Part shown: positions 2,385-53,007 of the stretch, piece after piece
Position numbering within the stretch: position 1 is the stretch's first letter
Layout: every line of letters starts with the position of its first letter
Assembly: GCF_030546645.1 (NCBI RefSeq)
Contig: NZ_JAUOTO010000005.1
Coordinates: forward strand, 496,001-560,000
Direction: 5' to 3'
DNA: 64,000 bases
Origin: Flavitalea plasmicola
Lineage (GTDB): Bacteria > Bacteroidota > Bacteroidia > Chitinophagales > Chitinophagaceae
Position numbers and translations under genes: made by a program
Notes under the pieces: model-generated
The model's input: the letters and a program-made list of their open reading frames with translations, nothing else
Database searches by the model: none
Told to the model about the DNA's origin: nothing

Positions 2385-2477
2385 AACAGGGAGATCTATT
2401 TGCCGTTGGTACGCGCAATCCCGCCGATGGGTAGTTAGGGCCGGGCGCGTACAACGGGGCGAACCGATCGGGTGTCA

Positions 2478-3581: not shown

Positions 3582-3587
3582 AATATT

Positions 3588-4700: not shown

Positions 4701-4706
4701 AATAGT

Positions 4707-5771
4707 ATGATGAAGCCTTCAGTAAAATACGTCCTGATCGTGGTATTAAGTATGGGATGTAAGAAAAGCAAACACGATGGCAACCCGCAGCCGCCGGAGA
4801 AAAAAGCTATCGTCACTACTATTGCGGGCGACGGCACCGATGGCTTTGCCAACGGACCTGCTTTGGCCGCCCAATTCAAATATCCCGTCGACGTGGCGGT
4901 GGCTGCTGACGGCACCCTCTATATAGCGGATTACACCGATCACCGGGTGCGCCAACTGGCCAATGGACAGGTGACGACGCTGGCGGGGGATGGCAATTTC
5001 GGATTCGCCAACGGGGATGGCCCGTCGGCCCGATTGATGGATCCCTATCGTCTTGCGGTGGATCAGGCCGGTAATTGTTATCTGATAGACCAGGTGGACG
5101 CCCGCATCCGTAAAATAACGCCGGGCGGCTATGTGACCACGTATGCCGGAATGGAAGCGGTGGGATTCCTGGATGGACCTTCTTTAACGGCCAGGTTCAT
5201 GGTAAATGCCGGAGGGCTTGCCGCCGATGCGGCAGGGAATATTTATGAGGGTGATAGTTTCAACCACAGGGTCAGAAAGGTCAGCGTGGCAGCGATGGTG
5301 AGCACGATGGCCGGGGATGGTCAGCGGGGTCTTCATAATGGTGATGGCGCCACGGCGGAGTTCAGGTTTCCAGGGGGCGTCACCTGCGACCGGCAAGGGA
5401 ATATTTATGTGTCGGACCAGGGGAATTTCTGTATCCGGAAAATAACGGTGAATGGGGTGGTGTCCACCTTAGCCGGAAACGGTGTAAATATCATTGTCGA
5501 CGGCGATCCCGGCGTCGCTCAATTCCGTCAGCCGGGTGACCTGGCGGCGGACAGCCAGGGGAATATTTACGTCATCGATGGGGCGCGGATCCGGAAAGTG
5601 ACGCCGCAAGGCGTGGTGTCCACCGTCGCGGGCAGTACGGAAGGTTATGCCGATGGGGATGGGTCGCAGGCAAAGTTCCTGGGACCCGGTGGATTGGGCA
5701 TCGATGCGCAGGATAATGTGTATGTGGCGGATTACGCGGATCATAGGATACGGAAGATTAGTTTTCAGTGA
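4707..5771 (+). CDS. NHL-repeat lipoprotein, copy 3 of 3
   Basis: A 354-residue paralogue with the shortest N-terminus. MMKPSVKYVLIVVLSMGCKK is a compact lipoprotein signal peptide. NHL blades run to the C-terminus (DNVYVADYADHRIRKISFQ). It starts 6 bp after copy 2 and ends four bases before the convergent anti-sigma-like gene, so this closes the operon. The post-cysteine linker has diverged (NPQPPEKKAIVTT). The assignment to the NHL family is secure; function is not. Confidence 0.88.
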   Translation: MMKPSVKYVLIVVLSMGCKKSKHDGNPQPPEKKAIVTTIAGDGTDGFANGPALAAQFKYPVDVAVAADGTLYIADYTDHRVRQLANGQVTTLAGDGNFGFANGDGPSARLMDPYRLAVDQAGNCYLIDQVDARIRKITPGGYVTTYAGMEAVGFLDGPSLTARFMVNAGGLAADAAGNIYEGDSFNHRVRKVSVAAMVSTMAGDGQRGLHNGDGATAEFRFPGGVTCDRQGNIYVSDQGNFCIRKITVNGVVSTLAGNGVNIIVDGDPGVAQFRQPGDLAADSQGNIYVIDGARIRKVTPQGVVSTVAGSTEGYADGDGSQAKFLGPGGLGIDAQDNVYVADYADHRIRKISFQ

Positions 5772-38679: not shown

Positions 38680-39426
38680 ATGAGCGTGTTTAGAATATCC
38701 ATAGCTTTTTTTGTATGCTTATTAGCAGTAGCGGCTAAGGCCCAGACGGCCGACGAGATCGTTGCCAAACATATGGAAGCCCTGGGTGGGAAAGACAAGT
38801 TGCTATCCATCAAATCCATCTACATGGAAGGAGTTGCTGTCATGGGGAACGGGAATGAGATCGATTCCAAAACATGGCAAGTGAAGGATAAGCTGTATCG
38901 GCAGGAGATCTCTTTCGGCATGGGCAATGTGGTGGTTATCGTTACGCCTACCAAAGGCTGGCGGTCCGACCCCAGGAATGGCGGCGCTTTTTCGCCTATC
39001 CCGGATTCAATCATAAAAAATATGCAGTCGCAGCTCGACCCGGCGGGTCCGCTGGTGGACTATGCGGCCAAGGGAAGTAAAGTCGAGCTGTTGGGTAAGG
39101 ACACGGTGGGGGGCAAGGCCTGCTATAAATTGAAGCTGACTTTCGCCGCGGGCAATTATGCTACTTATTTCATCGATGCGCAAAGCTATTATGTGCTTCG
39201 TGTGGCTCGCAAGGGTGGGGGCATGATGGGCGGAGGCGGTGGTGGCGGCCGCCGGGACCCCAATGCAGAATTCAATATCGACTTTGGCGACTATCAGAAG
39301 ACCCCGGACGGGTATATCTTTCCTTTTACCATCGTGGCCGGAGGGTTTGGAGCGAAATCGAGCGTGGAGAAGCTGGAGGTGAATAAGCCGGTGGATGAGG
39401 AGAAGTTGGGGAAGCCGGGGAATTAA
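38680..39426 (+). CDS. Secreted LolA-like / outer-membrane lipoprotein-sorting-type protein
   Basis: 248 residues. Signal peptide MSVFRISIAFFVCLLAVAAK (cut near AQT). Opens with ADEIVAKHMEALGGKDKL, the usual start of a Bacteroidota family with a LolA-like half-barrel, and continues with antiparallel strands (ACYKLKLTFAAGNYATYFID). A glycine run (GGGMMGGGGGGG) sits in a loop at about 183-194. Periplasmic, ligand unknown. It is upstream of the borosin cluster, but a promoter lies between, so it is probably separate. Confidence 0.7.
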   Translation: MSVFRISIAFFVCLLAVAAKAQTADEIVAKHMEALGGKDKLLSIKSIYMEGVAVMGNGNEIDSKTWQVKDKLYRQEISFGMGNVVVIVTPTKGWRSDPRNGGAFSPIPDSIIKNMQSQLDPAGPLVDYAAKGSKVELLGKDTVGGKACYKLKLTFAAGNYATYFIDAQSYYVLRVARKGGGMMGGGGGGGRRDPNAEFNIDFGDYQKTPDGYIFPFTIVAGGFGAKSSVEKLEVNKPVDEEKLGKPGN

Positions 39427-39467
39427 GGAGCTTCTTTGGAACGGATATAAAAAAGGGTGTTTTTCCC

Positions 39468-39499
39468 GTTGTAGCAGAATAGGAAATCTCATAGCTTTC
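39468..39499 (+). promoter_or_regulatory. Putative promoter of the borosin operon
   Basis: GTTG at 39468-39471, a 20-base spacer, and TAGCTTTC at 39492-39499 (7 of 8 with TAnnTTTG). Transcription would start near 39505, about 32 bases before the first precursor ATG at 39537. All following genes to 43549 are on the same strand with gaps of 10-30 bp, so this could drive the entire cluster. Confidence 0.4.
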
Positions 39500-39536
39500 A
39501 GGAGTCACTAATTACTTCACCATTCAAATCAAAGCT

Positions 39537-39776
39537 ATGAGCCAGTTAACGAATTTCCTATTGAAAATGGCTACCGATGAAACGCTAAGAAAAGATTTCA
39601 AGCATAATCCTGACGCTGTTATGGAAAAAGCCGGACTATCGGACATGGATAGGAAGGCTATTCTTTCAAAGAACAATGACGCCATTTCAAAAGCCGTCGC
39701 CAAGGAGAATCAAATGACGGAAGACGCCAGCGCCTTCAACTGGGTAATAGGAATATTTATTACGATCAAGTTCTAA
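39537..39776 (+). CDS. Split-borosin RiPP precursor peptide 1
   Basis: 79 residues. The helical leader, about 1-60, is of the borosin-binding-domain type. It has F21-K-H-N-P25-D-A-V-M29-E-K-A-G33-L-S-D, which matches the characterised Shewanella SonA leader (YKQNPEAVMRAHGLTD, from memory). The C-terminal tail FNWVIGIFITIKF (67-79) is rich in beta-branched and aromatic residues like borosin cores, and its W-V-I start recalls omphalotin. The enzyme gene starts 10 bp downstream. Predicted product: a peptide with alpha-N-methylated backbone amides. No Cys or Ser-rich core argues against a lanthipeptide or Nif11-type product. Confidence 0.85.
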   Translation: MSQLTNFLLKMATDETLRKDFKHNPDAVMEKAGLSDMDRKAILSKNNDAISKAVAKENQMTEDASAFNWVIGIFITIKF

Positions 39777-39786
39777 TTCTATTCTT

Positions 39787-40590
39787 ATGCCATTGCAAGG
39801 AAAACTTACCGTCGTAGGGACGGGTATTACTTCTTTTGCTCATATTAGTGCAGAAACCAAATGGGCCATTGAAAGCGCAGATAAAGTATTTTTCATCGTT
39901 TCTGATCCCCTCACCCAAATTTGGATAAAACAATTACACCCGCAAGCGGTAAGCTTGAGTACGTATTACGCCGAGGATAAGAATCGATTTGAAACTTACC
40001 AGGAAATGGTTCAGACAGTTATAGATGCACTGGTGGCCGGAGGAAATATTTGCCTGGTCTCCTATGGTCATCCTGGGGTTTTCGCTTATCCTACGCATGA
40101 GTCAATACGACGAGCTACCAGCATGGGCTTCGAAGCCAAGATGCTTCCGGGTATTTCCGCGGAGGATTGTCTCTTTGCCGATCTGGGGATCGACCCCGGA
40201 TCATCCGGATGTCAAAGTTTTGAAGCCACCGATTTTCTAGTTTATACAAGGAACTTTGATCCCTATGCCTCATTGATATTATGGCAGCTTGGCGTCATAG
40301 GCGTGCAGGAATATCGCTATTCCAATGAATTGTGGAATCGACGAGGCGTTCAAATCCTTACCGACTATTTGAAACAGTACTATCCTGGTTCTCATGTGGT
40401 CTATATTTATGAAGCTTCTATTTATATGGTAAGTGATGCGAAAATTGTTCCTTCGACCTTAAATGACCTGGCAATCAGTGATATCAGCGCGATATCCACA
40501 CTCTATGTACCCCCGGCGGGCAAAAAACAACCTAACCAGGAAATGATGGATAAGTTGTTTGTAAAGCAAGGTGCTGCTTCAACGGTTTAG
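39787..40590 (+). CDS. Borosin alpha-N-methyltransferase 1 (SonM-like, split type)
   Basis: 267 residues of the tetrapyrrole-methylase fold. SAM-site motifs: VVGTGIT (9-15), SYGHPGVFAYPTHE (92-105) and PGISAEDCLFADLGIDPG (121-138). Y61-R67-Y71 has the same spacing as the catalytic Y66-R72-Y76 of OphMA. Unlike fused fungal OphMA, there is no attached core; the substrate is the precursor encoded 10 bp upstream, as in SonM/SonA. It methylates backbone amide nitrogens of the precursor C-terminus using SAM. It is not a cobalamin or siroheme enzyme, since no such pathway gene is near. Confidence 0.85.
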   Translation: MPLQGKLTVVGTGITSFAHISAETKWAIESADKVFFIVSDPLTQIWIKQLHPQAVSLSTYYAEDKNRFETYQEMVQTVIDALVAGGNICLVSYGHPGVFAYPTHESIRRATSMGFEAKMLPGISAEDCLFADLGIDPGSSGCQSFEATDFLVYTRNFDPYASLILWQLGVIGVQEYRYSNELWNRRGVQILTDYLKQYYPGSHVVYIYEASIYMVSDAKIVPSTLNDLAISDISAISTLYVPPAGKKQPNQEMMDKLFVKQGAASTV

Positions 40591-40604
40591 CTAAATATTT
40601 TTAC

Positions 40605-42440
40605 GTGAGACTTCCCCATATCAGATTTGTGGCGACTCCATTCCTGCCGGAATACCAACCTGCCCTTGGGATAAGCAATTTGCTGTCAATCGTAAAAAGA
40701 AATGGTTATCAAGGCGATATTAAATACTTAAACCTGGATTTCGGTAAAAAATTCGGCTGGGATCTATATAATTTCATCGCGGTGGAGACGCCTCCTGAAC
40801 TACTCATTGGAGAATTTCTTTTCACCAAGGCATTGGGCATTTGTGACGACCATGCTTTTGAAATTTATTTTCAAACGCTTTTTGAGCAATGGGGATCGAC
40901 ATCGTCGCCTCGCATCCCTTTTTCCGAGTTGAAGATCGGAATGAAATTCTTGTTTGACGTATGTCCAAGAGTCGTTGAAAAGTGGGCCGATGAGTTGTTG
41001 GCGGACGACATTCAGGTGGTGGGTTTCACTTCTACGTTTCAACAAAACGTTGCGTCTCTTGCCGTCGCAAAGGTTATTAAGCAGCGTAAGGGAGACCGTG
41101 TCAAGATCGTATTTGGCGGCGCCAACCTCGAAGACATAATGGGGAAAACACTTTTTAAAGCATTCGACTTCATCGATTATGTCATCTCGGGTGAAGCGGA
41201 AAGTAGCATCCTCCCACTCCTTTTTCGATGTACGCAGTCTTTGGGGGGAATGGATCGAGCCTATATCAATGGCGAGATGGTAACGGATATGGATTCGATC
41301 CCCCTTCCGGATTTCGATGATTTTTTTTCATCCCTGCCCAACTCAAAAGTCGAAAGAGATGTTTACTTAAGCTTTGAATCCTCCAGGGGTTGTTGGTGGG
41401 GAATGAAATCGCATTGCACCTTCTGCGGTTTGAACGGGAATACCATGCAATATAGAAGCAAGAGCCCTGGTTTGTTTGTTCAACAAATAGAAAACCTAAG
41501 TACGCTTTATGGAAATAATAGTTTCATGATCACCGATAACATTCTTGATCTATCTTATATTAAGAATGTGTTTCCAGCCATCGCCGCGTCGAAACATCGG
41601 TATAGTTTATTTTATGAAACCAAGAGCAATCTCAGGAAAGATCAATTACAAATCATGGCGGCTGGCGGGGTCAACTGCTTGCAGCCAGGCATCGAAAGTC
41701 TGAGTACTTCGATACTTAAGTTAATGGGGAAGGGTACGACCAAACTTCAGAATATCCAGATTTTAAAGTGGGGCCGTGAGCTCAATATCAACATGATCTG
41801 GAATCTTCTTTTTGGTTTTCCCAACGAAGATGTTGAAGAATATTCAAAAATGGTGCAGCTCATTCCTGCATTGGTGCATTTGACACCTCCCGTGGGATAT
41901 GGAAAGATCAGGATCGATAGGTTCGGCCCCTATTGGAAGGAGCCGGCAAAATATGGCATTCATCATTTGCGGCCTGTATGGTCATACGAACATGTGTATA
42001 GGAACTTGCAAACTGACTTGCATGATATCGCTTATTATTTTGAGTTTGATTATGCGGATGAGCAGCACAACTTATCCTATGTCACAAGGTTAGTACAGGA
42101 GCTCAACATTTGGAAAGAAAGCGGGTCTGACGCCGTATTAGAGCTTGTTCAAGAGAATGGAACTGTATACATATCCGACACAAGGCCATGCGCTTTGCAT
42201 CCAACTTATTGTTTGAATGAATTGGAATATGCCATACTTCTTTGCCTGGATGCTGCTATGACGGGTGTCGCTATTACCCAGCATATTAAAATTGAACATC
42301 CTTCTCTGGCGGCCTGTGAAATGGAAAATGAAATATCCTTCGTGCTGACCCGGTTCCTGCGCTATAACTATATTGTCGCCGAAGGCAATAAATATTTCAG
42401 CTTAGTCTTGAATCCTTCTACAATATTTTTCACTCATTAA
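40605..42440 (+). CDS. Cobalamin-binding radical SAM RiPP-maturation enzyme, predicted C-methyltransferase
   Basis: 611 residues from a GTG start. The N-terminal part is a B12-binding Rossmann-like domain (about 100-210: DIQVVGFTSTFQQNVASLAV, KIVFGGANLEDIMG, YVISGEAE). The radical SAM core has S-S-R-G-C263-W-W-G-M-K-S-H-C271-T-F-C274-G-L-N-G; this C-x7-C-x2-C with CWWG and CGLNG marks RiPP-maturation radical SAM protein 1 (rSAM_ocin_1, TIGR03975 by recall). Members are predicted to methylate unactivated carbons. C-terminus (about 470-611) may bind the peptide. It lies between two precursor/methyltransferase pairs with gaps of 14 and 11 bp. Confidence 0.85.
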   Translation: MRLPHIRFVATPFLPEYQPALGISNLLSIVKRNGYQGDIKYLNLDFGKKFGWDLYNFIAVETPPELLIGEFLFTKALGICDDHAFEIYFQTLFEQWGSTSSPRIPFSELKIGMKFLFDVCPRVVEKWADELLADDIQVVGFTSTFQQNVASLAVAKVIKQRKGDRVKIVFGGANLEDIMGKTLFKAFDFIDYVISGEAESSILPLLFRCTQSLGGMDRAYINGEMVTDMDSIPLPDFDDFFSSLPNSKVERDVYLSFESSRGCWWGMKSHCTFCGLNGNTMQYRSKSPGLFVQQIENLSTLYGNNSFMITDNILDLSYIKNVFPAIAASKHRYSLFYETKSNLRKDQLQIMAAGGVNCLQPGIESLSTSILKLMGKGTTKLQNIQILKWGRELNINMIWNLLFGFPNEDVEEYSKMVQLIPALVHLTPPVGYGKIRIDRFGPYWKEPAKYGIHHLRPVWSYEHVYRNLQTDLHDIAYYFEFDYADEQHNLSYVTRLVQELNIWKESGSDAVLELVQENGTVYISDTRPCALHPTYCLNELEYAILLCLDAAMTGVAITQHIKIEHPSLAACEMENEISFVLTRFLRYNYIVAEGNKYFSLVLNPSTIFFTH

Positions 42441-42451
42441 AAAAAACAATC

Positions 42452-42682
42452 ATGGCACAGCTATTGAAATTTCTAAAAGACACAGCCGGCAATGCTGAAT
42501 CCTTAACAGCATTCCAAAAGGATCCCGAAGCCGCAATGACAGCAGCGGGTCTTTCCGACGCGGAAAAGAAGGCGATTAAAAGTGGCGACAGGGCCCAAAT
42601 TGCCAGCTTGATCGAACCTGGCGCACATGCGGAGGGCGCTTTTCTCAATGTTACAGTTCAACTTATAATACAAATTAGTTAA
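42452..42682 (+). CDS. Split-borosin RiPP precursor peptide 2
   Basis: 76 residues. It has the same leader motif at the same positions as precursor 1: F21, P25, A27, M29, A32-G-L-S-D36, so both are paralogues with a common binding domain. The C-terminal tail EGAFLNVTVQLIIQIS (61-76) differs from that of precursor 1 but is again hydrophobic and beta-branched. The leader-core boundary is marked by a Gly/Ala/His-rich turn (PGAHAEG). Its methyltransferase starts 30 bp downstream. Confidence 0.85.
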   Translation: MAQLLKFLKDTAGNAESLTAFQKDPEAAMTAAGLSDAEKKAIKSGDRAQIASLIEPGAHAEGAFLNVTVQLIIQIS

Positions 42683-42712
42683 ACTTCATTTAACGCATTT
42701 AAATCAGAACCA

Positions 42713-43549
42713 ATGAATGGATCGATCATTGTTGCCGGGAGTGGTATCACTTTAGGGCAAATGACCATGGAGACTCAGAACTATATTAAAACAGCAGATG
42801 TTGTTTATTATGTACTTACGGATATCGTTACTGAATCTTGGGTGACTGAAAATGCCAGGATCGCCCACTCTATGAAAGAGTATTATGAGGAGGGGGTAGG
42901 TAGGATCCATACTTACATCAAAATGGCCAATACCGTTCTTGATGCAGCGCGTCAAGGACACAACGTATGTGCGCTGTTTTATGGGCATCCTGGCATATTC
43001 GTCACTCCATCCCATGAGATTGTCAGGATTGCAAGGGCAGAGGGCATTCCTGCGCGAATGCTGGCGGGTGTGTCTGCCGAGGACTGTCTGGTTGCAGATT
43101 TTGGATTTGATCCGGGGAAGACGGGTTGTGCTGCTTACGAAGCTACTCAGTTGCTTGCCTACCCTAAAAAGTTAGACACGGCTGCGTGGTTGATCATATG
43201 GCAACCTGAAGCTACTGGCGATGTAGCCTATACAAAAAATCGGCAGTATGCCCAAAAGGTTCAAATATTGCGGGATTACTTGTTGAAATTCTATCTGCCT
43301 GATACAAAGGCGGCTGTCTACGAGGCTAACACTTATTCAATTGGCGCGCCTAAAATTGAATGGAAGATGATCAAGGATCTATGTGACTTTGAATTATCGG
43401 GCATTAGTACGCTCGTAATACCTCCTGCGACCAAGGCCGAAATGGATTTGGAGAATGTTTACGCTTTAGGTATTCCGGAGGTTGTTAGCAACAGGCATAC
43501 GTCCGACTATTCGACGGAGTCTGAAGCAGCCGAATGGAATACACCGTAA
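42713..43549 (+). CDS. Borosin alpha-N-methyltransferase 2 (SonM-like, split type)
   Basis: 278 residues, paralogue of the first. Motifs: VAGSGIT (7-13), FYGHPGIFVTPSHE (90-103), AGVSAEDCLVADFGFDPG (119-136). Y58-R64-Y68 keeps the Y-6-R-4-Y spacing of OphMA. The C-terminal extension (about 250-278) is acidic and likely disordered. It probably acts on precursor 2, encoded 30 bp upstream; whether it also takes precursor 1 is open, because both leaders share the motif. Last gene of the cluster. Confidence 0.85.
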   Translation: MNGSIIVAGSGITLGQMTMETQNYIKTADVVYYVLTDIVTESWVTENARIAHSMKEYYEEGVGRIHTYIKMANTVLDAARQGHNVCALFYGHPGIFVTPSHEIVRIARAEGIPARMLAGVSAEDCLVADFGFDPGKTGCAAYEATQLLAYPKKLDTAAWLIIWQPEATGDVAYTKNRQYAQKVQILRDYLLKFYLPDTKAAVYEANTYSIGAPKIEWKMIKDLCDFELSGISTLVIPPATKAEMDLENVYALGIPEVVSNRHTSDYSTESEAAEWNTP

Positions 43550-43555
43550 ATTCAG

Positions 43556-43570
43556 GCCTAAAACTTAGGC
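43556..43570 (+). other. Perfect hairpin between borosin cluster and helicase gene
   Basis: GCCTAA AAC TTAGGC, a 6-bp stem with a 3-base loop, in the 35-bp gap between the second methyltransferase and the helicase. No T-tract, so at most a weak terminator or RNA-processing site. Confidence 0.3.
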
Positions 43571-43584
43571 AATAACATAAACTT

Positions 43585-46500
43585 ATGAAGAAGAATACCA
43601 GATACCAGCTGAAACACTTAAGTATCCGTGTGCCCTGGCATGATAATGCCTGGAATGGAGCAGTGTGTACAAACCCCAAAGCCAATGGCGCCTGTCTTAC
43701 CCTAAGGAATTGTGCTCTTAGCCGGAATGATGAGCAGGAAGAAGCAGTAAAAGGGCAATTGTTAAAAGACCTGGACGAAGAGCAGTATCCGGCATGTGTG
43801 GGTGAAAGAGCTACTTTTATGGCTCCCTTTCCTTTTTACAAAACCTTAAGTCATCCGTATGCCGAAAGTTCGCCTGGTACGCATGGCCATCTCAAACCCA
43901 CCAAAGTACAGTTTCCCGCATTTTCAGCCGCCGCCGTCCCTTATCATTGGATGCTAAAGGAAAATGCAAAAGAGAAAACAGCGCTATATGCTCTGAACTA
44001 CGAAGAAAGCAAAGAGCCGCAACTCGACTGGGCGGCCGATGGCAATGACAACTGGGTGCAGGAAATAAACAACCAACAAGCCCTTCTCAATTGCTTTTTT
44101 GAGCATTTGGAAGCAGAGAAGTCGCTGGTATTTTTCTATGCCAAGCAAACCCCGTTTGTAGAAGAATCGGGCAGGGTACTGGTAGGCGTAGGCAAGATCA
44201 ATAAGATCATTCCTTCGGAAGCATACGATGGGAGCAACAGCCGTTTTGGGGCAGCTTATTGGGAACATATGATTCTACATTCTATTCGACAGGGGAATTC
44301 AAATGGGTTTTTACTACCTTACCACGAAGCCTTGGCGTATCAGAAGGAAAATCCCGGTTTTGATGTGGCGAATCTGGCGGTAACTGTCCCAAACGACAAA
44401 CGGTTTGAATTTTCGTATGCGGCTGAACATGTAAGTAATGACAGCTCAATAAGAGTCCTATTGGAATGCCTGCGTTCATTAGAACGAGCTGAAGCATTGG
44501 GCATTGGCGAGAAAAATGTAGCTAAAATCCAGTGGATACATAATGAAGTCGCCGCGCTTGAAAAACTAAGGGGGGCTTATCCTGGAATGGGAGCCGCCCT
44601 TTGTGCATTTGGCATAGAAAAAGGGCATTTCGTGGCTGCCGAGATTATCAATCAGTTGCAGAACCTGGAAGACAATCCATGGCATTTATTTGAAAAGGCA
44701 TTAGACGATTCTAAAGGCATCTTATCCAATGCGGTGGCGGCATTAATTCCTTTTAACAGCAAAAAACTATATCATCTTTTAAAGAACAAAGGTACACCAA
44801 CTCGGATATGGTTTCTGCATTTATTGAGTCGTTTTGACCTTAGCATCGAGCAGACTAAAACCCTATATGTGCAGGAAGTAAGAGAAGAAATGGGTATTGA
44901 ACGAAGTGATGAACAATATCTTGAAAATCCTTATTTGATTTATGAAGACCTGCGATTAACAGCGGATCCCATTGCACTAAGTACAATTGATTTGGGATTA
45001 TACGTTAAAAATCCCCCTAACAATCTCTTGCCCAATGGCCTGGTATTCCAGGACCCGTTTGAATTTGCCCGTATCAGGGCACTAACGATCCAGCAATTGG
45101 AGAGGGCTTCATTGGCAGGACATACACTGTTGCCACGCCAGGAGATCATCAGGCAAATCCGGGAGCTTTCAATAACACCTGCCTGTGCTGTCAATAGTGA
45201 TTATTTTGAATTGGCTGAAGAAGTGTTTGGCGGCGCTATTGTGTTGGAAGAAATGAAAAAAGGTGATCGGGCTTATCAGTTGCATCGGTTTTCCGACACA
45301 CGAAAGATCATCAATGAAAAGGTTACTCAACGTATCAACGCCAGGCGACTTGAATTAAAAGCGAATTGGACTGCCTTAATGGATAAGGCATTAAAACCTT
45401 TTACGAAAGGAAAGCCTGATGAACAGGAAATAAAAGCCCGCAAAGAAAAAGCTGCAGCCCTGAAAGAAATTGCCGAAAGCAGGTTTTCAGTACTGATAGG
45501 TCCTGCTGGGACCGGCAAAACAACCCTACTTACCATTCTGGCAGGGCAGAAAGAAGTGGAAGAAAATGGAGTATTGCTATTAGCGCCTACCGGGAAGGCA
45601 AGAGTGCGTATGGAAGAAGTTGCAAAAGACCTTTCGGTAACAGCAAAAACATTGGCTCAATTCCTTTCCGGTTTTGGCAGATACGATGGGGATATTCAAC
45701 AATATGTTTTCTCGGACCAACATTGTGAACAATATGAGACCGTAATAATGGACGAAGCTTCTATGCTTACGGAGGAAATGCTGGCAACAACCCTGGATTG
45801 CCTAAAAGGGGTAAAACGCTTTATTCTGGTAGGTGATCATAGACAATTGCCGCCTATCGGCTCAGGCAGACCATTTATAGATATCATCCATTTTCTAAAA
45901 CCTGTGGGCATAGAAACAACCTTTCCAAGAATTGGAAAAGGATATGCCGAATTAACCATCAAACGTAGGCAAGGCGGTGGGAAAAGAGAGGATATGCAAT
46001 TGGCGGAATGGTTTAGCGGTGAACCGCTGGAACCAGGGGCAGATAGTATCATAAATCACATTATCACTACTCCCGATTCTGCATATCTTCGGATCGAATA
46101 TTGGGAAAATGAAACAATCTTCGAAAAGAAATTCGAAGAAGTATTGGTAGCAGAACTGGGAATGGAGTCGTTGGACGATGTGGAAACATTCAACAAAACA
46201 TTAGGCTCTGCTGATGGTACGTATTTTAATTTCAAAGAAGCAGCCAATAAAGCAGAAAACTGGCAGATACTTTCACCGGTGAGGGAGAAAGCATTTGGTG
46301 TAAGAGCGCTGAACAGAAAAATACACAAGCATTTCAGGAAGACCAACGTGGAATTTGCCCGAAATCGGAATGGGAAGACCCCTGCTCCCATTGGTTTGGA
46401 AGAGATCGTTTATGGAGATAAGATCATAAATCTGTATAATAGCCGCAGATATTTTAAAGATGTCTATCCGCAGGAAGATGCATTGAATTTTGTTGCCAAC

Positions 46501-47334
46501 GGTGAGATTGGAATGGTGATTGGGCAATTTAAGAAGCATTTTCATACATTTCCCGGTAGGCCTAAGAACACCGAGATTGAATTCACTTCACAGAAAGGAT
46601 ATAAATACACCTTTAAGAGCAAAGAGTTTTCCGAAGAAGCCAATAATCCACTGGAATTGGCTTATGCGCTCACGGTTCACAAGGCACAGGGAAGCGAGTT
46701 TGGAAAGGTCTTTATCGTCATTCCCAACCCTTGCTTCCTATTGTCAAGGGAGATGCTTTATACAGCCCTTACAAGACAGAAATATAAAGTAATATTGCTG
46801 ATACAGGGCAATGCATTTGATATTAAAGGGTGGGGATCTCCCGCCAGATCAGATGCGCTTAAAAGACTAACCAACTTGTTCCACAAACCCGAATTGGTCG
46901 ATGTTGACGGACATTACTTAGAGAGAAATTTAATACACCAGGCAAGCGATGGGAAAATGCTTCGTTCCAAAAGCGAATTATTGATTTATCAACGATTAGT
47001 AGATAAGAAGCTGAACCCCCTATATGAGAAGAAGCTGACGATCAAAGAAGTGGAAAAGCTACCCGACTTCACCATCGAAAATGATGACACCGGCGAGGTG
47101 TATTACTGGGAACATTGCGGCATGCTTTACGATATAGAATACCAACAACGATGGGAAGAAAAATATGCCTGGTACAGAGAGAACGACATACTACCATTTG
47201 AGGAGGGTGGAGGCAAAAATGGAATTCTCCTTGTTACTGAAGACAAGCCCATTGAAATTGAAGATGGCAGTATTCGTGGCGCCATCTCCGTAAAAGAGAT
47301 CGATGAGATCATAAAAAAAGTATTTGATAGATAA
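43585..47334 (+). CDS. RecD-like SF1 helicase with C-terminal PD-(D/E)xK-like nuclease
   Basis: 1249 residues. Residues 1-600 match nothing I know. The SF1 helicase core is at about 610-1060: Walker A GPAGTGKTTLL (639-649), Walker B VIMDEASM (D723, E724), LVGDHRQLPPIGSG (motif III), and ALTVHKAQGSEFG (1029-1040), the RecD2-type motif V. The C-terminal domain has SKSELLIYQRL, LPDFTI (D1161) and YYWEH (E1176), followed by YAWYREN, a pattern of restriction-endonuclease-like nucleases attached to helicases. Likely DNA repair or anti-phage defence. It starts 35 bp after the borosin cluster but is probably not part of that pathway. AT-rich for this genome. Confidence 0.8.
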   Translation: MKKNTRYQLKHLSIRVPWHDNAWNGAVCTNPKANGACLTLRNCALSRNDEQEEAVKGQLLKDLDEEQYPACVGERATFMAPFPFYKTLSHPYAESSPGTHGHLKPTKVQFPAFSAAAVPYHWMLKENAKEKTALYALNYEESKEPQLDWAADGNDNWVQEINNQQALLNCFFEHLEAEKSLVFFYAKQTPFVEESGRVLVGVGKINKIIPSEAYDGSNSRFGAAYWEHMILHSIRQGNSNGFLLPYHEALAYQKENPGFDVANLAVTVPNDKRFEFSYAAEHVSNDSSIRVLLECLRSLERAEALGIGEKNVAKIQWIHNEVAALEKLRGAYPGMGAALCAFGIEKGHFVAAEIINQLQNLEDNPWHLFEKALDDSKGILSNAVAALIPFNSKKLYHLLKNKGTPTRIWFLHLLSRFDLSIEQTKTLYVQEVREEMGIERSDEQYLENPYLIYEDLRLTADPIALSTIDLGLYVKNPPNNLLPNGLVFQDPFEFARIRALTIQQLERASLAGHTLLPRQEIIRQIRELSITPACAVNSDYFELAEEVFGGAIVLEEMKKGDRAYQLHRFSDTRKIINEKVTQRINARRLELKANWTALMDKALKPFTKGKPDEQEIKARKEKAAALKEIAESRFSVLIGPAGTGKTTLLTILAGQKEVEENGVLLLAPTGKARVRMEEVAKDLSVTAKTLAQFLSGFGRYDGDIQQYVFSDQHCEQYETVIMDEASMLTEEMLATTLDCLKGVKRFILVGDHRQLPPIGSGRPFIDIIHFLKPVGIETTFPRIGKGYAELTIKRRQGGGKREDMQLAEWFSGEPLEPGADSIINHIITTPDSAYLRIEYWENETIFEKKFEEVLVAELGMESLDDVETFNKTLGSADGTYFNFKEAANKAENWQILSPVREKAFGVRALNRKIHKHFRKTNVEFARNRNGKTPAPIGLEEIVYGDKIINLYNSRRYFKDVYPQEDALNFVANGEIGMVIGQFKKHFHTFPGRPKNTEIEFTSQKGYKYTFKSKEFSEEANNPLELAYALTVHKAQGSEFGKVFIVIPNPCFLLSREMLYTALTRQKYKVILLIQGNAFDIKGWGSPARSDALKRLTNLFHKPELVDVDGHYLERNLIHQASDGKMLRSKSELLIYQRLVDKKLNPLYEKKLTIKEVEKLPDFTIENDDTGEVYYWEHCGMLYDIEYQQRWEEKYAWYRENDILPFEEGGGKNGILLVTEDKPIEIEDGSIRGAISVKEIDEIIKKVFDR

Positions 47335-47397
47335 ACAGTTGAAAATAACTTCTTCCGCATTCTCATGCGCAATACACTTAGACCTTAAAAAAATAGC

Positions 47398-47691
47398 ATG
47401 GTAAATATAACGGAAACGATCAGAATCAATTCCGAACATTCTATCGAGTTTGGATCAGCGCGTTGGGACCACAGTGTTGCGACGATAAGGAGAAGAAAAA
47501 ATAGAGCAGATGGGTCTTATGATCCAATTAGTTCAAGTGAAATCCCTATTAATGAGGGCTTCCTTGATATTGGGAGATTGGTTTGCGAGTGCTTACAGAG
47601 GGATTTGATAACCGGAACTGATATGGCGGAAATTTTAAGAGAAACATTAGCCTCTGCCGTAAGGCAGGGAATGGTAATTTCTTTGGTATGA
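47398..47691 (+). CDS. Small hypothetical protein next to the helicase
   Basis: 97 residues, cytoplasmic. Starts VNITETIRINSEHSIEFGSA, then a basic ATIRRRKNRADGS and a helical end (CECLQRDLITGTDMAEILRE). Follows the helicase by 63 bp in the same direction and stops 47 bp before the IS256 element. Before that insertion it would have converged with the PLD-helicase gene with about 33 bp between stops. No family recognised. Confidence 0.5.
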   Translation: MVNITETIRINSEHSIEFGSARWDHSVATIRRRKNRADGSYDPISSSEIPINEGFLDIGRLVCECLQRDLITGTDMAEILRETLASAVRQGMVISLV

Positions 47692-47730
47692 AGAGATTAT
47701 ATGGGATTCAGTGAAGCTGATTATTTACGG

Positions 47731-47761
47731 CTTTTTCCGAGAGTGTAAAATAAACTGTGTC
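47731..47761 (+). repeat. Left target duplication and left inverted repeat of the IS256 element
   Basis: Target duplication CTTTTTCC at 47731-47738, then the 23-bp inverted repeat at 47739-47761, outer part GAGAGTGTAAAATAAACTGT. Confidence 0.85.
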
Positions 47762-47794
47762 GAAAGTTAAATTCTTAACTTCAAACACAGTAAA

Positions 47795-49030
47795 ATGAAA
47801 AAGAAAGTCCCATCACCTTCGGAACCATTCGATTACGAATTAGCCAAGCAAAAGGTAAAGGAACAATTACGTAGTGGCAAATCTTTATTCGGTAAAGATG
47901 GTGCCTTTGCGCCGTTATTGCAAGAGATGCTCAACTCGATCCTGGAGGGCGAGATGGAGGGCCACTTGGATGAGGAAGAACGGGATGCCGGCAACCGCAA
48001 AAATGGGAAGACCAAGAGGCAACTGAAGACGTCCTCCGGCACTATCGAAGTAACGACCCCGCGGGACCGTCTGAGCAGTTTTGAGCCGGAGATGGTCAAA
48101 AAGCGGGAGACGATCATGGCGCAGAACCTGGAAGATAAAATCGTTGGCTTATACGGTTTGGGAACAAGCCTCCGTGATATCAGCGCCCACATCAAAGAGA
48201 CATACGATACGGATATCTTTGCAGCTACCCTGAGCGCCATTACCGACAAAGTCATCCCCCTGGTGAAGGACTGGCAGCAGCGACCGCTGGAAGAGCTGTA
48301 TTGCATTGTATGGCTCGATGCGATGTACTACAAGGTAAAGGAGGAAGGCCGTGTCCAGACGCGGTGCGTCTACAATATCCTTGGAATTAACAAGGAGGGC
48401 AAAAAGGATGTGTTGGGGATGTACGTTTCCCAGAGCGAAGGGGCGAATTTCTGGCTCGGGGTGATCACCGATCTGAAGCAAAGAGGAGTCATCGATATCC
48501 TGATCGCCTGTATTGATAACTTGAAGGGCTTTGAGGAGGCGATCCGGACGATCTACTCTGCTACAGAGGTCCAGACCTGCGTAGTGCACCAGATCCGCAA
48601 TTCACTGAAGTATGTGGCCAGCAAGGACCAGAAGGTATTTATGGCTGATTTAAAGCCGGTTTATCAGGCGATGAATAGAGACCAGGCCGAGGCCAACCTG
48701 CTGGATCTGGAAGAGAAATGGGGCAGGAAATATCCAGTGGTGATCGATTCCTGGAGGCGTAACTGGGATAAGCTGACCACCTACTTCCGGTATCCAGATG
48801 CGATTCGAAAAATGATCTATACGACCAATACGATCGAAGGTTATCACCGCCAAATCCGGAAAGTGACTAAGAGTAAGGGTGCCTTTACCGGTGATATGGC
48901 CCTGTTGAAATTGATCTACCTGGCTACCGAGCGGGTTGCCAAAAAATGGACCATGCCATTACAGGGATGGGCCATATCCGCCTCACAGCTAAAGATTATA
49001 TTTGGCGACAGAATGAGTACCGATCTATGA
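47795..49030 (+). CDS. IS256-family (mutator) transposase
   Basis: 411 residues, full length. DDE catalytic residues are visible: Asp in VWLDAMYYKV, Asp in IACIDNLKGF and Glu in TTNTIEGYHRQIRK, with the family C/H-type signature VVHQIRNSLKYV between. N-terminal DNA-binding part includes GHLDEEERDAGNRKNGKTKR. It cuts at the 23-bp ends and inserts with an 8-9 bp duplication, matching what flanks this element. No frameshift or missing residue. Confidence 0.96.
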   Translation: MKKKVPSPSEPFDYELAKQKVKEQLRSGKSLFGKDGAFAPLLQEMLNSILEGEMEGHLDEEERDAGNRKNGKTKRQLKTSSGTIEVTTPRDRLSSFEPEMVKKRETIMAQNLEDKIVGLYGLGTSLRDISAHIKETYDTDIFAATLSAITDKVIPLVKDWQQRPLEELYCIVWLDAMYYKVKEEGRVQTRCVYNILGINKEGKKDVLGMYVSQSEGANFWLGVITDLKQRGVIDILIACIDNLKGFEEAIRTIYSATEVQTCVVHQIRNSLKYVASKDQKVFMADLKPVYQAMNRDQAEANLLDLEEKWGRKYPVVIDSWRRNWDKLTTYFRYPDAIRKMIYTTNTIEGYHRQIRKVTKSKGAFTGDMALLKLIYLATERVAKKWTMPLQGWAISASQLKIIFGDRMSTDL

Positions 49031-49041
49031 TAAGGCTCCGT

Positions 49042-49088
49042 AAAAAAGAGGCGGCGACTTGCTCTTTGGATGGAGCCGTCGCCGCCTC
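49042..49088 (-). terminator. Strong minus-direction terminator inside the IS256 element
   Basis: An 11-bp perfect stem (49048-49058 GAGGCGGCGAC with 49078-49088) which on the minus strand is followed by six T (A-run at 49042-49047). It would stop transcripts entering from the convergent PLD-helicase gene before they run antisense through the transposase. GGCTCC at 49034-49039 can instead pair with GGAGCC at 49072-49077, an alternative fold. Confidence 0.55.
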
Positions 49089-49121
49089 AATTAAACTAGT
49101 CCCAGTTACAAAAGATGCATC

Positions 49122-49454
49122 ATGAAATTTAAATGTCACTTCCCTGCTGGTTATACTGCAACAAATATTAGCAATGACAATATTGACATCAACGTCGTAA
49201 CGGAGGACGAAAATGTCTATTTTGCTACCCTATTTACTTTGGAGAATATTCACTCACTGATGGCAAAAGACGAATCTCCTTATTTTTGGGCCACCAATAT
49301 GCTGATCGTGAAAGATTTGAGTTTATATTCAATTAGATCAGCAATAGACCGTATTGTAAATGATGGTTATTTAGAATCAGCTGCCTGTAAAATTGGGGAC
49401 ACACAAAAAGTATTCGGTGAAACATATACCTTTGATTCTTTGCCAGATAAATAA
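49122..49454 (+). CDS. Passenger gene of the IS256 element, unknown
   Basis: 110 residues, cytoplasmic, acidic. Starts MKFKCHFPAGYTATNISNDN and has a mixed alpha/beta pattern (LYSIRSAIDRIVNDGYLESA). Its stop is 3 bp before the right inverted repeat, so it is inside the mobile unit and moves with it. It is 91 bp downstream of the transposase, past the hairpin. No family recognised; it could be a regulator of transposition or an unrelated cargo. Confidence 0.6.
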   Translation: MKFKCHFPAGYTATNISNDNIDINVVTEDENVYFATLFTLENIHSLMAKDESPYFWATNMLIVKDLSLYSIRSAIDRIVNDGYLESAACKIGDTQKVFGETYTFDSLPDK

Positions 49455-49457
49455 GCT

Positions 49458-49488
49458 GACACAGTTTAATTTACACTCCCCTTTTTCC
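49458..49488 (-). repeat. Right inverted repeat and right target duplication of the IS256 element
   Basis: Inverted repeat at 49458-49480 (inner part GACACAGTTTAATTTACACT) and duplication CTTTTTCC at 49481-49488. The last four sense codons and the stop of the minus-strand helicase gene lie within this repeat. Confidence 0.85.
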
Positions 49489-52400
49489 TCTCTGCAATTC
49501 CAATTATACAGGAAGCTATTTTACTGTCGATATCATCTGTAGTGGGGGCGTTTTCCAAAATGGCAGCAAAAATATCCGCTGAAAAGTCAATTTTTTTATA
49601 CTCACTCTTCAAACTGGATAAATTTATTACTGTACGTTTGCGTCTGAGGTTGTCCCTTTTTTCATTGAGATAAGGTTGCAGGATCGAAATCCATTCGTCG
49701 GCCAGCCATTCATAGTCTATGGCAAATTGATTGTGAGGCTTAAGCAGCTCCAAATGTGATTGAATGATTCTTTTCGTAACTATATTTATTTCCCGTCGTC
49801 TTAAACTGCGTTCCAGTATGTACTTCGCTACATCCAGCGCCCGTTTCTTTTTGGGTGGCAAAAGAGCTCTTTCTTTGACTTTAAAATAGACGATGTACCT
49901 TTTTAGGGCTGCGTCGTTCCATTCTAGTCCCTTCGATTTCTTTGTGAGGTGTATTCTCAGCTGTGCACAAACATCCGAAAATTCAGTATGGATCGTGTCT
50001 TCATCGTCGATGAAATACCATTTGGGACTGCGATTTTTCTCTCCCCTTAGTGCAATGAAACACCAGTTTTTGTCGTTGCCCACGAAACTGACACGCGTTC
50101 GAACAGAAGCCTGCACCCCCTTATAGGCTTCATAGGTTTCCTTCCGGATAAGGGGATTGTCGCCCTCTTTCAATTCTATAATTGGCTGAAAACTATCGGT
50201 TAGACCTTTCCAGGATTCGTCTTTATCAATAAAATCCTTGTATTCCTGGATTATGCTGGATATATTCTCCACATTTTCAAAGTGCCGTTCCCGTAGTTCT
50301 TCCGGCACATTAAAATTTGACCCGTATATCTGATCTACCCAGGCGTTAGTTTGAACGAGCCGACGATCTGCCTTTAAGGAAAACTCTTCCGAGTCTTTTG
50401 GCCAATAAATGTCTATTGCTTCATGCACACTATCCATCCTGTCAGCGCGACCTATTCGCTGCTCCACAATACGTAATACGCTGGGCATGTCCAGGAGCAT
50501 GACGCAAGACGCCCTTTGAAGGTCGATGCTTTCGGACATTTTATCGGAGCACAGGGCAATTGTCTTTACATTAGATCCGGAAGTGATGTTAAACGTATCC
50601 ATTACTTTACGGCTCTCCTTGTCACTATCGCTTCCAGAGGCTACGAGAACATTTTGTTTCGGGTATTGGTTGGAAAAAAGATGACGGAGGTAGTGTAACG
50701 TGATAACAGTGCTATCGAACGCAAGAATGAATTTATGCTTTCGGGCTATTTGCTCTAGTTGCTTCACTTTACCCAGTTCTCTTTTACCTGAAAGTCGTTT
50801 GGCCAGCTTGCTGACATCTTCATAAATTTTCAGATCACTTGAACAAGCGTCGATATATTCCTTATTGTTAATAAGCCAGGAGGGAAAGTATTCATCTTTA
50901 AACAGTTTATTCCTTGAAGGTAGTTTGCCAGTCGCTATCAAATCTTGTAAAATCTTAATTTTATTCCCTGTTGAAGTTGTTTTCCCTTTGAACTTAAAAA
51001 TGCGCATTGCTTCTTCCGTTCCTTCAATATGCTCTACCAGTGCTACATGAGAGGAACGAAGCGCAGACCGGATTATATAAATTGACAAGGCCTTGGCTGC
51101 GCTAAGACGTTTGTCGATATACCCTCTAATGCTCTCTTCGTTTGTCATCTCAAAACTCGGTTTATGAAAAGTGGTGAGATAGGTGACACCTTGCAAGCGT
51201 GACACTAAATTGCTAATTTCCATGACAATTTCTAAGTCTCCAGAAGTCTCTTCGGTGTCATATGTTCGCTCCACCTGACTCGGGAACTTACAGGTTTTGT
51301 TGAGTTTGTTTTTATACATCTCCGGTTCCTTGTCAATTTCTGCATTCAACGACTTTTTCGTTCTGCGGACCATGAACTGGCTGATGAATTTGCGTAGTTT
51401 TCTGATATGTTGTTCCTGGTTTCTCAATTGGGGATTCCGTATCAGGTCTTCATAGCTTTTAAAATCGCCATCCGACAGATTATCCAGGTCGAGTAAATCG
51501 ATCAGCCGCAACAAGTCTTCTACTTTTTTGCTAATTGGCGTTGCCGTCACCAGTATCTTGTACTCCGCGCGATTGCCTTTAATGAGACGAGTGCGGTTTG
51601 AATTTTCCGACAGGTAATTATGAGCTTCGTCGACCGTTAAGATCTTAGCAATCTCGAGGCTTTCTTTTACTTTCTTTTTGTTTGGGCCACCGGCATTGCT
51701 CAATAAGCCCATTGATAACTGGGACGAATTGAGCTTTTTTAATGAACGGAACTCTTCTTCCCATTTCGACACTACTAAAGGCGGACAAATAACCAGTGAG
51801 CTAGTACTGTAGTTTTTACCCACTTGGTAAAGCCAATGTTTTAGAGCCAGAATCAGTGAGGTGCTGAGTTTGGTTTTGCCAGCTCCCGTGGGATCGGCCA
51901 GGAGTACATTATATTGGCTTTGCAGGATGGAAACTGCCTGTGCAAGCCCCTTCCACTGGGTAGGCCATAGATTGCTGCTTTTCAGCTTATCCAGGATTTC
52001 GCGATACTCGGCCAGCCATTCTCCGTCTAGAAGTTCCGCTATAGCCCGAGCAAGAGCTTCTTCCCAATCCGTGTGTTGAATCAGCTCCTTCAAGAGTTCC
52101 TTAATCTTATCGTTGTATTCATGGGCTTCTTCAAAATAGTTTTCAGCTATTTTCTTAATTGAATTATATTGGGTGTATTCATGCTCATTGATTCTACCAA
52201 CTCTTATATTGGCTTCCTCCTGGATTGTCAATCCTGTTTTACTGAAATTTGAGGAACCTAAAACAACAAAGTCATCTCCAACATATAGTTTTGCATGTTG
52301 CTTATCACGATAACGAAATATTATCAAACCCGTGTCTATTTTTTGAATGAGCTTCATTACAGCACCACCGGACATTATGGAAAGCCCCTTTTTCAGCCAA

Positions 52401-52726
52401 TATTCCTTAATTTCCTTATCTAACTTAACAGTCTGATATTTTCTTCGCCCTCTTATATTTGGCTCAAAACCTATGAGAATTCGGATGGTTTTCAACTTTG
52501 CAAATTCATTGGATCCGAAATAGTCAACCAGGTTGGAAAGAGAAGTGAAGCCGGTGATGATCAAATAATTTGTGCTGGTTTCTATGTCTGTGTAAATAAC
52601 ATCTTCGACGGTTGCATTCCCAACTTTCTTGTTAAGAGGGAAAGATGTATGTTCAGGCCATTTGACTGCTTCAAAGTCCAATGAAGTCTGTGAGGTATTA
52701 GGTGTCGCTTTCTTTATTCTCTCCAT
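49466..52726 (-). CDS. Phospholipase-D nuclease / SF2 helicase fusion, putative defence protein
   Basis: 1086 residues. N-terminal PLD-like domain (about 40-185) with one HKD-type motif, H144-A-K146-LYVGDDFVVLG and SSNFSKTG, which usually works as a dimer. SF2 helicase: Walker A DPTGAGKT (278-285), DEAH box (366-369), ILVTATPIS (motif III), and QRIGRADRMDS (756-766, motif VI). The last 300 residues are unknown. PLD-helicase fusions occur in DNA repair and anti-phage systems. The IS256 element replaced the final residues: without it the gene would end KKP-stop, now KKGSVN-stop, so function is probably kept. Confidence 0.8.
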   Translation of the reverse strand: MERIKKATPNTSQTSLDFEAVKWPEHTSFPLNKKVGNATVEDVIYTDIETSTNYLIITGFTSLSNLVDYFGSNEFAKLKTIRILIGFEPNIRGRRKYQTVKLDKEIKEYWLKKGLSIMSGGAVMKLIQKIDTGLIIFRYRDKQHAKLYVGDDFVVLGSSNFSKTGLTIQEEANIRVGRINEHEYTQYNSIKKIAENYFEEAHEYNDKIKELLKELIQHTDWEEALARAIAELLDGEWLAEYREILDKLKSSNLWPTQWKGLAQAVSILQSQYNVLLADPTGAGKTKLSTSLILALKHWLYQVGKNYSTSSLVICPPLVVSKWEEEFRSLKKLNSSQLSMGLLSNAGGPNKKKVKESLEIAKILTVDEAHNYLSENSNRTRLIKGNRAEYKILVTATPISKKVEDLLRLIDLLDLDNLSDGDFKSYEDLIRNPQLRNQEQHIRKLRKFISQFMVRRTKKSLNAEIDKEPEMYKNKLNKTCKFPSQVERTYDTEETSGDLEIVMEISNLVSRLQGVTYLTTFHKPSFEMTNEESIRGYIDKRLSAAKALSIYIIRSALRSSHVALVEHIEGTEEAMRIFKFKGKTTSTGNKIKILQDLIATGKLPSRNKLFKDEYFPSWLINNKEYIDACSSDLKIYEDVSKLAKRLSGKRELGKVKQLEQIARKHKFILAFDSTVITLHYLRHLFSNQYPKQNVLVASGSDSDKESRKVMDTFNITSGSNVKTIALCSDKMSESIDLQRASCVMLLDMPSVLRIVEQRIGRADRMDSVHEAIDIYWPKDSEEFSLKADRRLVQTNAWVDQIYGSNFNVPEELRERHFENVENISSIIQEYKDFIDKDESWKGLTDSFQPIIELKEGDNPLIRKETYEAYKGVQASVRTRVSFVGNDKNWCFIALRGEKNRSPKWYFIDDEDTIHTEFSDVCAQLRIHLTKKSKGLEWNDAALKRYIVYFKVKERALLPPKKKRALDVAKYILERSLRRREINIVTKRIIQSHLELLKPHNQFAIDYEWLADEWISILQPYLNEKRDNLRRKRTVINLSSLKSEYKKIDFSADIFAAILENAPTTDDIDSKIASCIIGIAERKKGSVN

Positions 52727-53007
52727 ATGAATAAATCCATTACCGAAAGTGATGATTAGTCGAAGGATTACTCAACATATTCATAAATATAAAATCTAAT
52801 TATACTACATTAATGAATCTTTGACCCATTTCCGGCCCTTGGGAAACTTTTGGAAGAAGCTAAGCAAGGCGTGTCCTGCTATCCCCCCGTAACCCTACTA
52901 CGTAATTCCCCTATCTTTCCAACAATAGAACCACGCATTTTTCGTTTAAAAGAGTTCAGAGAACCCGGTGAGGGTGAATATCCTATACAAAAACCAAGAC
53001 CCGTAGT

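Follow-up and report, generated by a model that had tools for sequence, protein, structure and literature searches.

A candidate split-borosin operon with two precursors and a cobalamin-type radical SAM gene in Flavitalea plasmicola

The five-gene operon

The window analysed here is a stretch of 64,000 nucleotides from Flavitalea plasmicola (Chitinophagaceae, Bacteroidota; contig NZ_JAUOTO010000005.1, positions 496,001–560,000), and our subject is a five-gene operon on its plus strand, at 39537–43549 in window coordinates, which combines enzymes of a backbone-methylating kind with one of a carbon-methylating family. In gene order, with intergenic gaps of 10, 14, 11 and 30 bp, the genes encode precursor 1 (39537–39776, 79 residues), in which a leader of approximately residues 1–55, a borosin binding domain, precedes a C-terminal core (...SAFNWVIGIFITIKF); the borosin-type α-N-methyltransferase MT1 (39787–40590, 267 residues); a cobalamin-type radical S-adenosylmethionine (SAM) enzyme of family TIGR03975, rSAM_ocin_1 (40605–42440, 611 residues, GTG start), predicted to be a peptide C-methyltransferase; precursor 2 (42452–42682, 76 residues), again a binding-domain leader with a core; and a second borosin-type methyltransferase, MT2 (42713–43549, 278 residues). 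An earlier note on this DNA, made from the letters alone, had given the same five genes in the same order, and the open reading frames (ORFs) match its positions exactly. The matches of the three enzymes to known families, with E values from 1e-49 to 1e-173, lie well past chance. No conspicuous ribosome-binding consensus was seen on visual inspection upstream of the five start codons, and a promoter and terminator scan returned no more sites than shuffled sequence. We regard the gene order, the enzyme families, their catalytic residues, the predicted folds and the location on a genomic island as established.

Enzymes and precursors

By homology MT1 and MT2 are borosin-type methyltransferases, which leaves the N-methylation step well grounded. 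Both fall in Pfam PF00590 (65.7 and 63.7 bits; cut-off 27.8), a superfamily shared with the tetrapyrrole (cobalamin/siroheme) C-methylases, which have the same fold, and the earlier note had set its borosin assignment in advance against that identity. CobA, CbiF and their kin were duly considered and rejected. The NCBIfam models of the superfamily, whose compared cut-offs run from 163 to 525 bits, stay far below them, at best 42.2 bits for YabN with MT1 (cut-off 525), and the 25 solved-sequence matches listed for each enzyme are borosin enzymes throughout. Solved matches, NCBIfam scores and the retained catalytic residues agree, and a tetrapyrrole function is next to impossible. The best solved match of MT1 is SonM (E = 7.2e-58); for MT2 it is MroMA (2e-49), with SonM at 2.6e-47. 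Eight SonM residues (Y58, R67, Y71, Y93, F99, E146, W166 and Q167) are identical in MT1 and MT2; the position of E173 holds Glu in MT1 and Asp in MT2, and L34, Q55, R68 and Q178 are substituted in both. Mutation of Y58, R67, Y71 and Y93 reduces SonM activity (PMC8429565). The Y-6-R-4-Y spacing claimed for the pair is exact in MT1 (Y61-R67-Y71) and MT2 (Y58-R64-Y68) and is that of KchMA (Y73-R79-Y83; PMC11395268). The SonM spacing is longer (Y58-9-R67-4-Y71), with three extra residues between Tyr and Arg, and pairwise alignment sets MT2 Y57, not the neighbouring Y58, opposite SonM Y58. A search of the genome with MT1 gave two matches, MT1 itself and MT2. A sub-threshold Pfam match of MT2 to a transglutaminase core was disregarded.

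The two precursors are 32% identical and have the common leader motif described before, with GLSD and KAI present in both. Precursor 1 matches SonA chains among solved structures (phmmer, E = 4.5e-5); for precursor 2 the seven best solved matches are all SonA, and weak (best E = 0.0022). The predicted model of precursor 2 (predicted local distance difference test, pLDDT, 75.6; predicted template modelling score, pTM, 0.58) has five leader helices, and its ten best Foldseek matches in the PDB are SonA chains, the best with a probability of 1.00 and a root-mean-square deviation (rmsd) of 0.9 over 53 columns at E = 0.11, none of them reaching E < 0.1. A separate binding-domain precursor is thus recognisable by sequence for precursor 1, and for precursor 2 weakly by sequence and also by predicted fold. 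Other family matches fell below cut-off, including (narrowly) Pfam LigA (E = 5.6e-5 for precursor 1 and 9.3e-5 for precursor 2), the IniB N-terminal domain, which is the top NCBIfam match of both (30.3 and 24.5 bits; cut-off 40), and several further NCBIfam leader models that touch both precursors. No proteusin/NHLP leader model reached its cut-off (in brackets) with precursor 1, at 21.9 bits for TIGR04509 (34), 18.7 for TIGR03798 (32.3), 15.7 for NF038399 (40) and 12.8 for TIGR03793 (50.9), or with precursor 2, at 21.6 for NF038399 (40) and 13.7 for TIGR04509 (34).

The cores, which end in ...AFNWVIGIFITIKF for precursor 1 and ...AFLNVTVQLIIQIS for precursor 2, are both rich in Val, Ile and Thr in a comparison of composition across binding-domain ORFs (58 rows, with precursor 2 entered twice; the ORFs counted have at most 60 residues beyond the domain). 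Such cores suit both types of enzyme. SonM N-methylates positions two apart, L63 and I65 (PMC8429565), and the targets of the radical SAM enzyme EreB include V13, V15, V35 and V37 (PMC9259500). At the other borosin loci surveyed below, cyanobacterial binding-domain precursors (L016, L035, L042, L049 and others) end in acidic proline repeats resembling DPxPDPDP, in contrast to the hydrophobic cores of the window, and those at L058, L022 and L075 have poly-Val C-terminal ends.

The radical SAM enzyme falls in the family that had been named for it, scoring 577.1 bits with TIGR03975, in the region of twice the cut-off of 281.85, and none of the 22 other NCBIfam models listed for it exceeds its own cut-off. 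No other protein of the genome exceeds the TIGR03975 cut-off, though three match more weakly. We take PoyC to be a member of this family. The expected signature is present as C263-x7-C271-x2-C274 within CWWGMKSHCTFCGLNG, and its three cysteines do not vary across an alignment of 23 sequences that includes the window's own; this unusual Cx7Cx2C motif has been reported in PoyC and in the bottromycin enzymes (PMC5682303; for PoyC also PMC11285071). Since the Pfam B12-binding domain scores 26.3 bits, below its cut-off of 32.1, the structure of the enzyme was predicted. The resulting model (20 sequences; pLDDT 88.7, pTM 0.89), in which the cluster loop at 264–280 is poorly predicted, has 13 Foldseek matches at E ≤ 0.001, with template modelling scores of 0.38–0.65 and large rmsd: three chains of OxsB (best 6.7e-14), four of TsrM (best 2.6e-9), one of MgmA (3.4e-9), four of MiaB (best 1.0e-8) and one of AprD4 (7.6e-7). 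OxsB and TsrM, the nearest folds, are cobalamin enzymes according to their structure titles; MiaB is not known as a cobalamin enzyme. No solved chain is similar to the enzyme in sequence at 0.001. Family name, motif and fold lead us to predict a PoyC-class peptide C-methyltransferase.

Occurrence and ancestry

The earlier note knew of no described cluster with this duplicated arrangement. In the samples covered here, the combination of borosin and radical SAM genes is uncommon. In a sample of 394 genomes of the family, borosin methyltransferases occur in four (E ≤ 1e-30) and relatives of the radical SAM enzyme in two (1e-40), this genome included in each case, and the two occur together in this genome only. 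The radical SAM enzyme was found in 3 of 395 genomes of a phylum sample (1e-60). In a genome-contig collection, 192 stretches carry a methyltransferase relative, and the 80 best of these yielded 79 borosin loci, many of them cut by contig ends. A TIGR03975 enzyme directly follows the methyltransferase at one of the 79, locus L037 from an Acidobacteria metagenome-assembled genome (MAG), where it scores 651.8 bits and is 35% identical to the window's enzyme. L037 differs from the window in that its contig begins at the methyltransferase, of which there is one, and no precursor was seen; an aspartyl-protease/PDZ gene lies immediately past the radical SAM gene (3002–4939), a candidate processing protease. 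A motif scan of ORFs of at least 260 residues across the 79 loci picked out four of them. One is L037. In L088, titled Bryobacterales, a frame for a KedN5-like B12-radical SAM enzyme extends to the borosin methyltransferase (1230–4023), which places a second kind of B12 enzyme beside a borosin enzyme; by eye, another radical SAM ORF, SPASM-like, lies upstream of that frame. In L045 the hit is a radical SAM enzyme closest to SPASM maturases, more than 7 kb away, and in L052 it is antisense. A binding-domain ORF separate from the methyltransferase is present at 64 of the 79 other borosin loci, by a profile built from the same ORF set without a negative control. Across the samples searched, split-borosin genes accompanied by a PoyC-class enzyme, in this paired layout, are rare. 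In the excerpts of the literature searched, outside which the main borosin surveys lie, no borosin methyltransferase is described together with a B12-radical SAM enzyme.

Plasmid records hold the methyltransferase in 13 cases (4 opened) and the radical SAM enzyme in 70 (3 opened), and none of the 7 stretches opened carries both. A viral origin of the operon enzymes was considered and set aside: the methyltransferase has no match in phage records or viral contigs, and the radical SAM enzyme has no relative in viral contigs. Within the family, methyltransferases are fused behind the binding domain at L092 and L093, and at L094 and L096, both in one genome, they lie within frames of 744–764 residues. 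The sole other TIGR03975 enzyme of the family sample, at L166 (4649–6900, minus strand; 607 bits), comes with a 67-residue precursor-like ORF (4649–4852) that ends in AITVTVGVDF, is rich in Val, Ile and Thr, and is without a borosin binding domain.

The arrangement had been called duplicated, a word that may mislead: MT1 and MT2 are only 39% identical, and by identity each is closer to outside relatives, MT1 to that of locus L013 (52%) and MT2 to that of L050 (44%). The closest relative of MT1 is titled Eremiobacterota (52%); for MT2 the tree path leads to a rhizobial plasmid and identity to a deltaproteobacterial MAG (44%), with weak support. A recent tandem duplication is not supported by these identities. 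The two are sisters in 1 of 60 FastTree resamples. A sisterhood constraint is nevertheless kept by a likelihood test (approximately unbiased p-AU 0.843), the constrained tree lying 29.55 log units above the quick free tree on which this phylogeny rests, so that MT1 and MT2 may still be sisters.

Two methyltransferase ORFs occur at 6 of the 79 loci, as true pairs at L025, L045 and L081 and probably as a split or shifted single gene at L018, L037 and L065. L025 is the only one of the 79 that also has two binding-domain ORFs (opposite strand; no radical SAM hit). On plasmid p155_2 of Bradyrhizobium sp. 155 (L167, 2706–7775), two borosin methyltransferases enclose, as in the window, first a tailoring enzyme and then a precursor with the binding domain, whose core ends in ...FRVIRIRNIRIRFGV. 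There, however, a TauD-type dioxygenase replaces the radical SAM enzyme, one precursor was found, and a prolyl oligopeptidase gene adjoins on the opposite strand. Given these pairs, doubling in itself is not new, and the window is not alone in having a tailoring gene between two borosin methyltransferases.

A proposed pathway and its genomic setting

Among the nearest described systems is SonM/SonA of Shewanella oneidensis, a type IV split borosin (PMC8429565), with which the operon has in common separate genes for precursor and α-N-methyltransferase, a helical binding-domain leader, identical catalytic residues and a short hydrophobic core. Unlike SonM/SonA as described there, the window has two precursor/methyltransferase pairs, a B12-radical SAM gene and Y-6-R in place of Y-9-R. 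PoyC and PoyB of the polytheonamide pathway are likewise B12-radical SAM enzymes with Cx7Cx2C, and PoyC methylates Val and Ile at Cβ, but they act on a proteusin precursor, and the excerpts of these papers mention no accompanying borosin enzyme (PMC5682303, PMC11285071). The joining of N- and C-methylation in one ribosomally synthesised and post-translationally modified peptide (RiPP) is already known from the proteusin pythonamide (ere), in which EreM and EreB act on one core, so that it carries N-methyl groups on the backbone together with C-methyl groups of the B12-radical SAM type; the N-methyltransferase there is of the FkbM family, not a borosin enzyme, the core has 46 residues, and an epimerase and a hydroxylase take part (PMC9259500).

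We think it probable that the operon directs the synthesis of one or two split-borosin peptides with both backbone N-methylation and side-chain C-methylation, type IV-like in a sense drawn from the separate precursor and the homology to SonM. For the chemical steps, their order, the pairing of enzymes with precursors, export and role, we infer the following scheme. Through its N-terminal helical domain each precursor would bind a methyltransferase, in the simplest case the product of the gene immediately downstream. This enzyme would then proceed from N to C along the hydrophobic C-terminal core and methylate its backbone amides, possibly at every second residue in the manner of SonM. The radical SAM enzyme would use methylcobalamin and a 5′-deoxyadenosyl radical to methylate unactivated Cβ atoms at Val/Ile/Thr-rich positions of one or both cores, either before N-methylation or interleaved with it. 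Proteases would then release the peptides; protease and transporter families had no Pfam match among 20 window proteins, at varying thresholds, and 8 of the 20 had no match of any kind.

For this pathway speak the enzyme families and their residues, the predicted folds of the radical SAM enzyme and of the precursor 2 leader, the separate binding-domain ORFs at 64 of the 79 other loci, and cores rich in Val, Ile and Thr, as is the precursor-like ORF at L166. Two further observations are that the methyltransferase and the radical SAM enzyme are each rare and yet co-occur here, and that a B12-radical SAM gene beside a borosin methyltransferase recurs at L037 and L088. A number of others weigh against it. 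Such a gene stands at 2 of 79 borosin loci in the scans used, so the association is not general, and with methyltransferases in 1 of 33 genomes of the genus, conservation does not prove the operon to be a functional unit. In the L037 methyltransferase (1–828) an in-frame TAA interrupts the region of the catalytic Tyr and Arg, by either pseudogene formation or assembly error. The 13 significant fold matches include MiaB and AprD4 as well, neither of them a peptide C-methylase. Some borosin loci that lack a radical SAM enzyme have cores even richer in Val, Ile and Thr; core composition was therefore dropped as proof, and the cores alone do not demonstrate C-methylation. The radical SAM enzyme would, besides, have to recognise a binding-domain leader.

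An alternative view is that the peptides are N-methylated only and that the radical SAM gene is a passenger, with its own precursor lost, or inactive on precursors 1 and 2. Relatives of the L037 radical SAM enzyme occur in 25 of 396 genomes of its phylum (E ≤ 1e-80), at 38 places. Among 31 loci checked in flanks of up to 1.5 kb (30 of the 38 places and one repeat), a methyltransferase was present only at the place of L037, counted twice; the 29 others, which also count against the proposed pathway, have no borosin methyltransferase there, and the 6 of them scored against TIGR03975 all exceed its cut-off. The radical SAM loci examined have different precursor-like ORFs, and the surrounding island is a mosaic with an insertion element and helicases. 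On the other side, the gene is flanked by two precursor/methyltransferase pairs on one strand with gaps of 14 and 11 bp, its three cluster cysteines are intact, the gaps hold no extra precursor-sized ORF on the operon strand, and comparable neighbours exist at L037 and L088. We judge the passenger view unlikely.

Within the proposed pathway, the radical SAM enzyme might modify one precursor only, giving an N-methylated peptide and an N-/C-methylated peptide that perhaps act jointly. The differing cores and the low identity of MT1 and MT2 are in keeping with this, and two-peptide products exist among RiPPs, but we found no sequence feature linking the enzyme to a single precursor, and we see it as a possibility of some substance that falls short of being favoured. 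A more elaborate version, in which two orthogonal precursor/N-methyltransferase pairs and one common C-methylase yield two short peptides with N-methyl and Cβ-methyl groups at alternating positions, a miniature, proteusin-like and membrane-active pair borne on a mobile defence-type island, is put forward as speculation, and rather doubtful.

Borosin enzymes represent well-studied ribosomal backbone N-methylation, and PoyC-type enzymes the methylation of unactivated carbons; if the proposed pathway holds, precursors of 76–79 residues would form a compact system for peptides bearing both modifications. The operon poses a testable question, whether one short leader can serve two unrelated methylases, and in what order. 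As of 2021, split-borosin pathways had no assigned final natural product (PMC8429565).

The operon lies in a low-GC island of 13.6 kb (39427–53007; GC 0.43–0.44 inside, 0.52–0.53 outside). The genes flanking it (38680–39426 and 53008–55095) have counterparts 1.6, 2.8 and 0.24 kb apart in the three of 33 same-genus genomes opened, and the island is not at the equivalent site in any of these. Its low GC and the unoccupied site in relatives mark it as most likely acquired. Downstream of the operon, 35 bp after MT2, is a RecD-like helicase gene (43585–47334, plus strand), a match to the phage-defence candidate PDC-S68 by PADLOC (PDLC05065, 1474.5 bits), which is possibly co-transcribed; the name PDC-S68 was not found in the literature searched. 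It is followed by a mutator-family insertion element (47741–49478) with 21-nt inverted ends, presumably IS256-type, whose right end overlaps the last bases of an SNF2-family helicase gene (49466–52726, minus strand); the latter has weak DrmD, DpdE and ZorD matches and, by eye, a PLD-like N-terminal stretch. The operon product could on this evidence be an island-borne agent tied to phage defence or competition and co-expressed with the PDC-S68 helicase, given the closeness of that gene, the SNF2-family helicase further on, the low GC and the empty site in relatives. Set against this, a scan of the other borosin loci, within their limited flanks, found no PDC-S68 relative, the PDC entries of PADLOC have only candidate status, and defence candidates share islands with unrelated cargo; we consider such a role improbable. 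Concerning cofactor supply, the genome encodes five PF00590 proteins, three besides MT1 and MT2, and this small number, set beside the needs of cobalamin synthesis, suggests that the host takes up cobalamin instead of making it.

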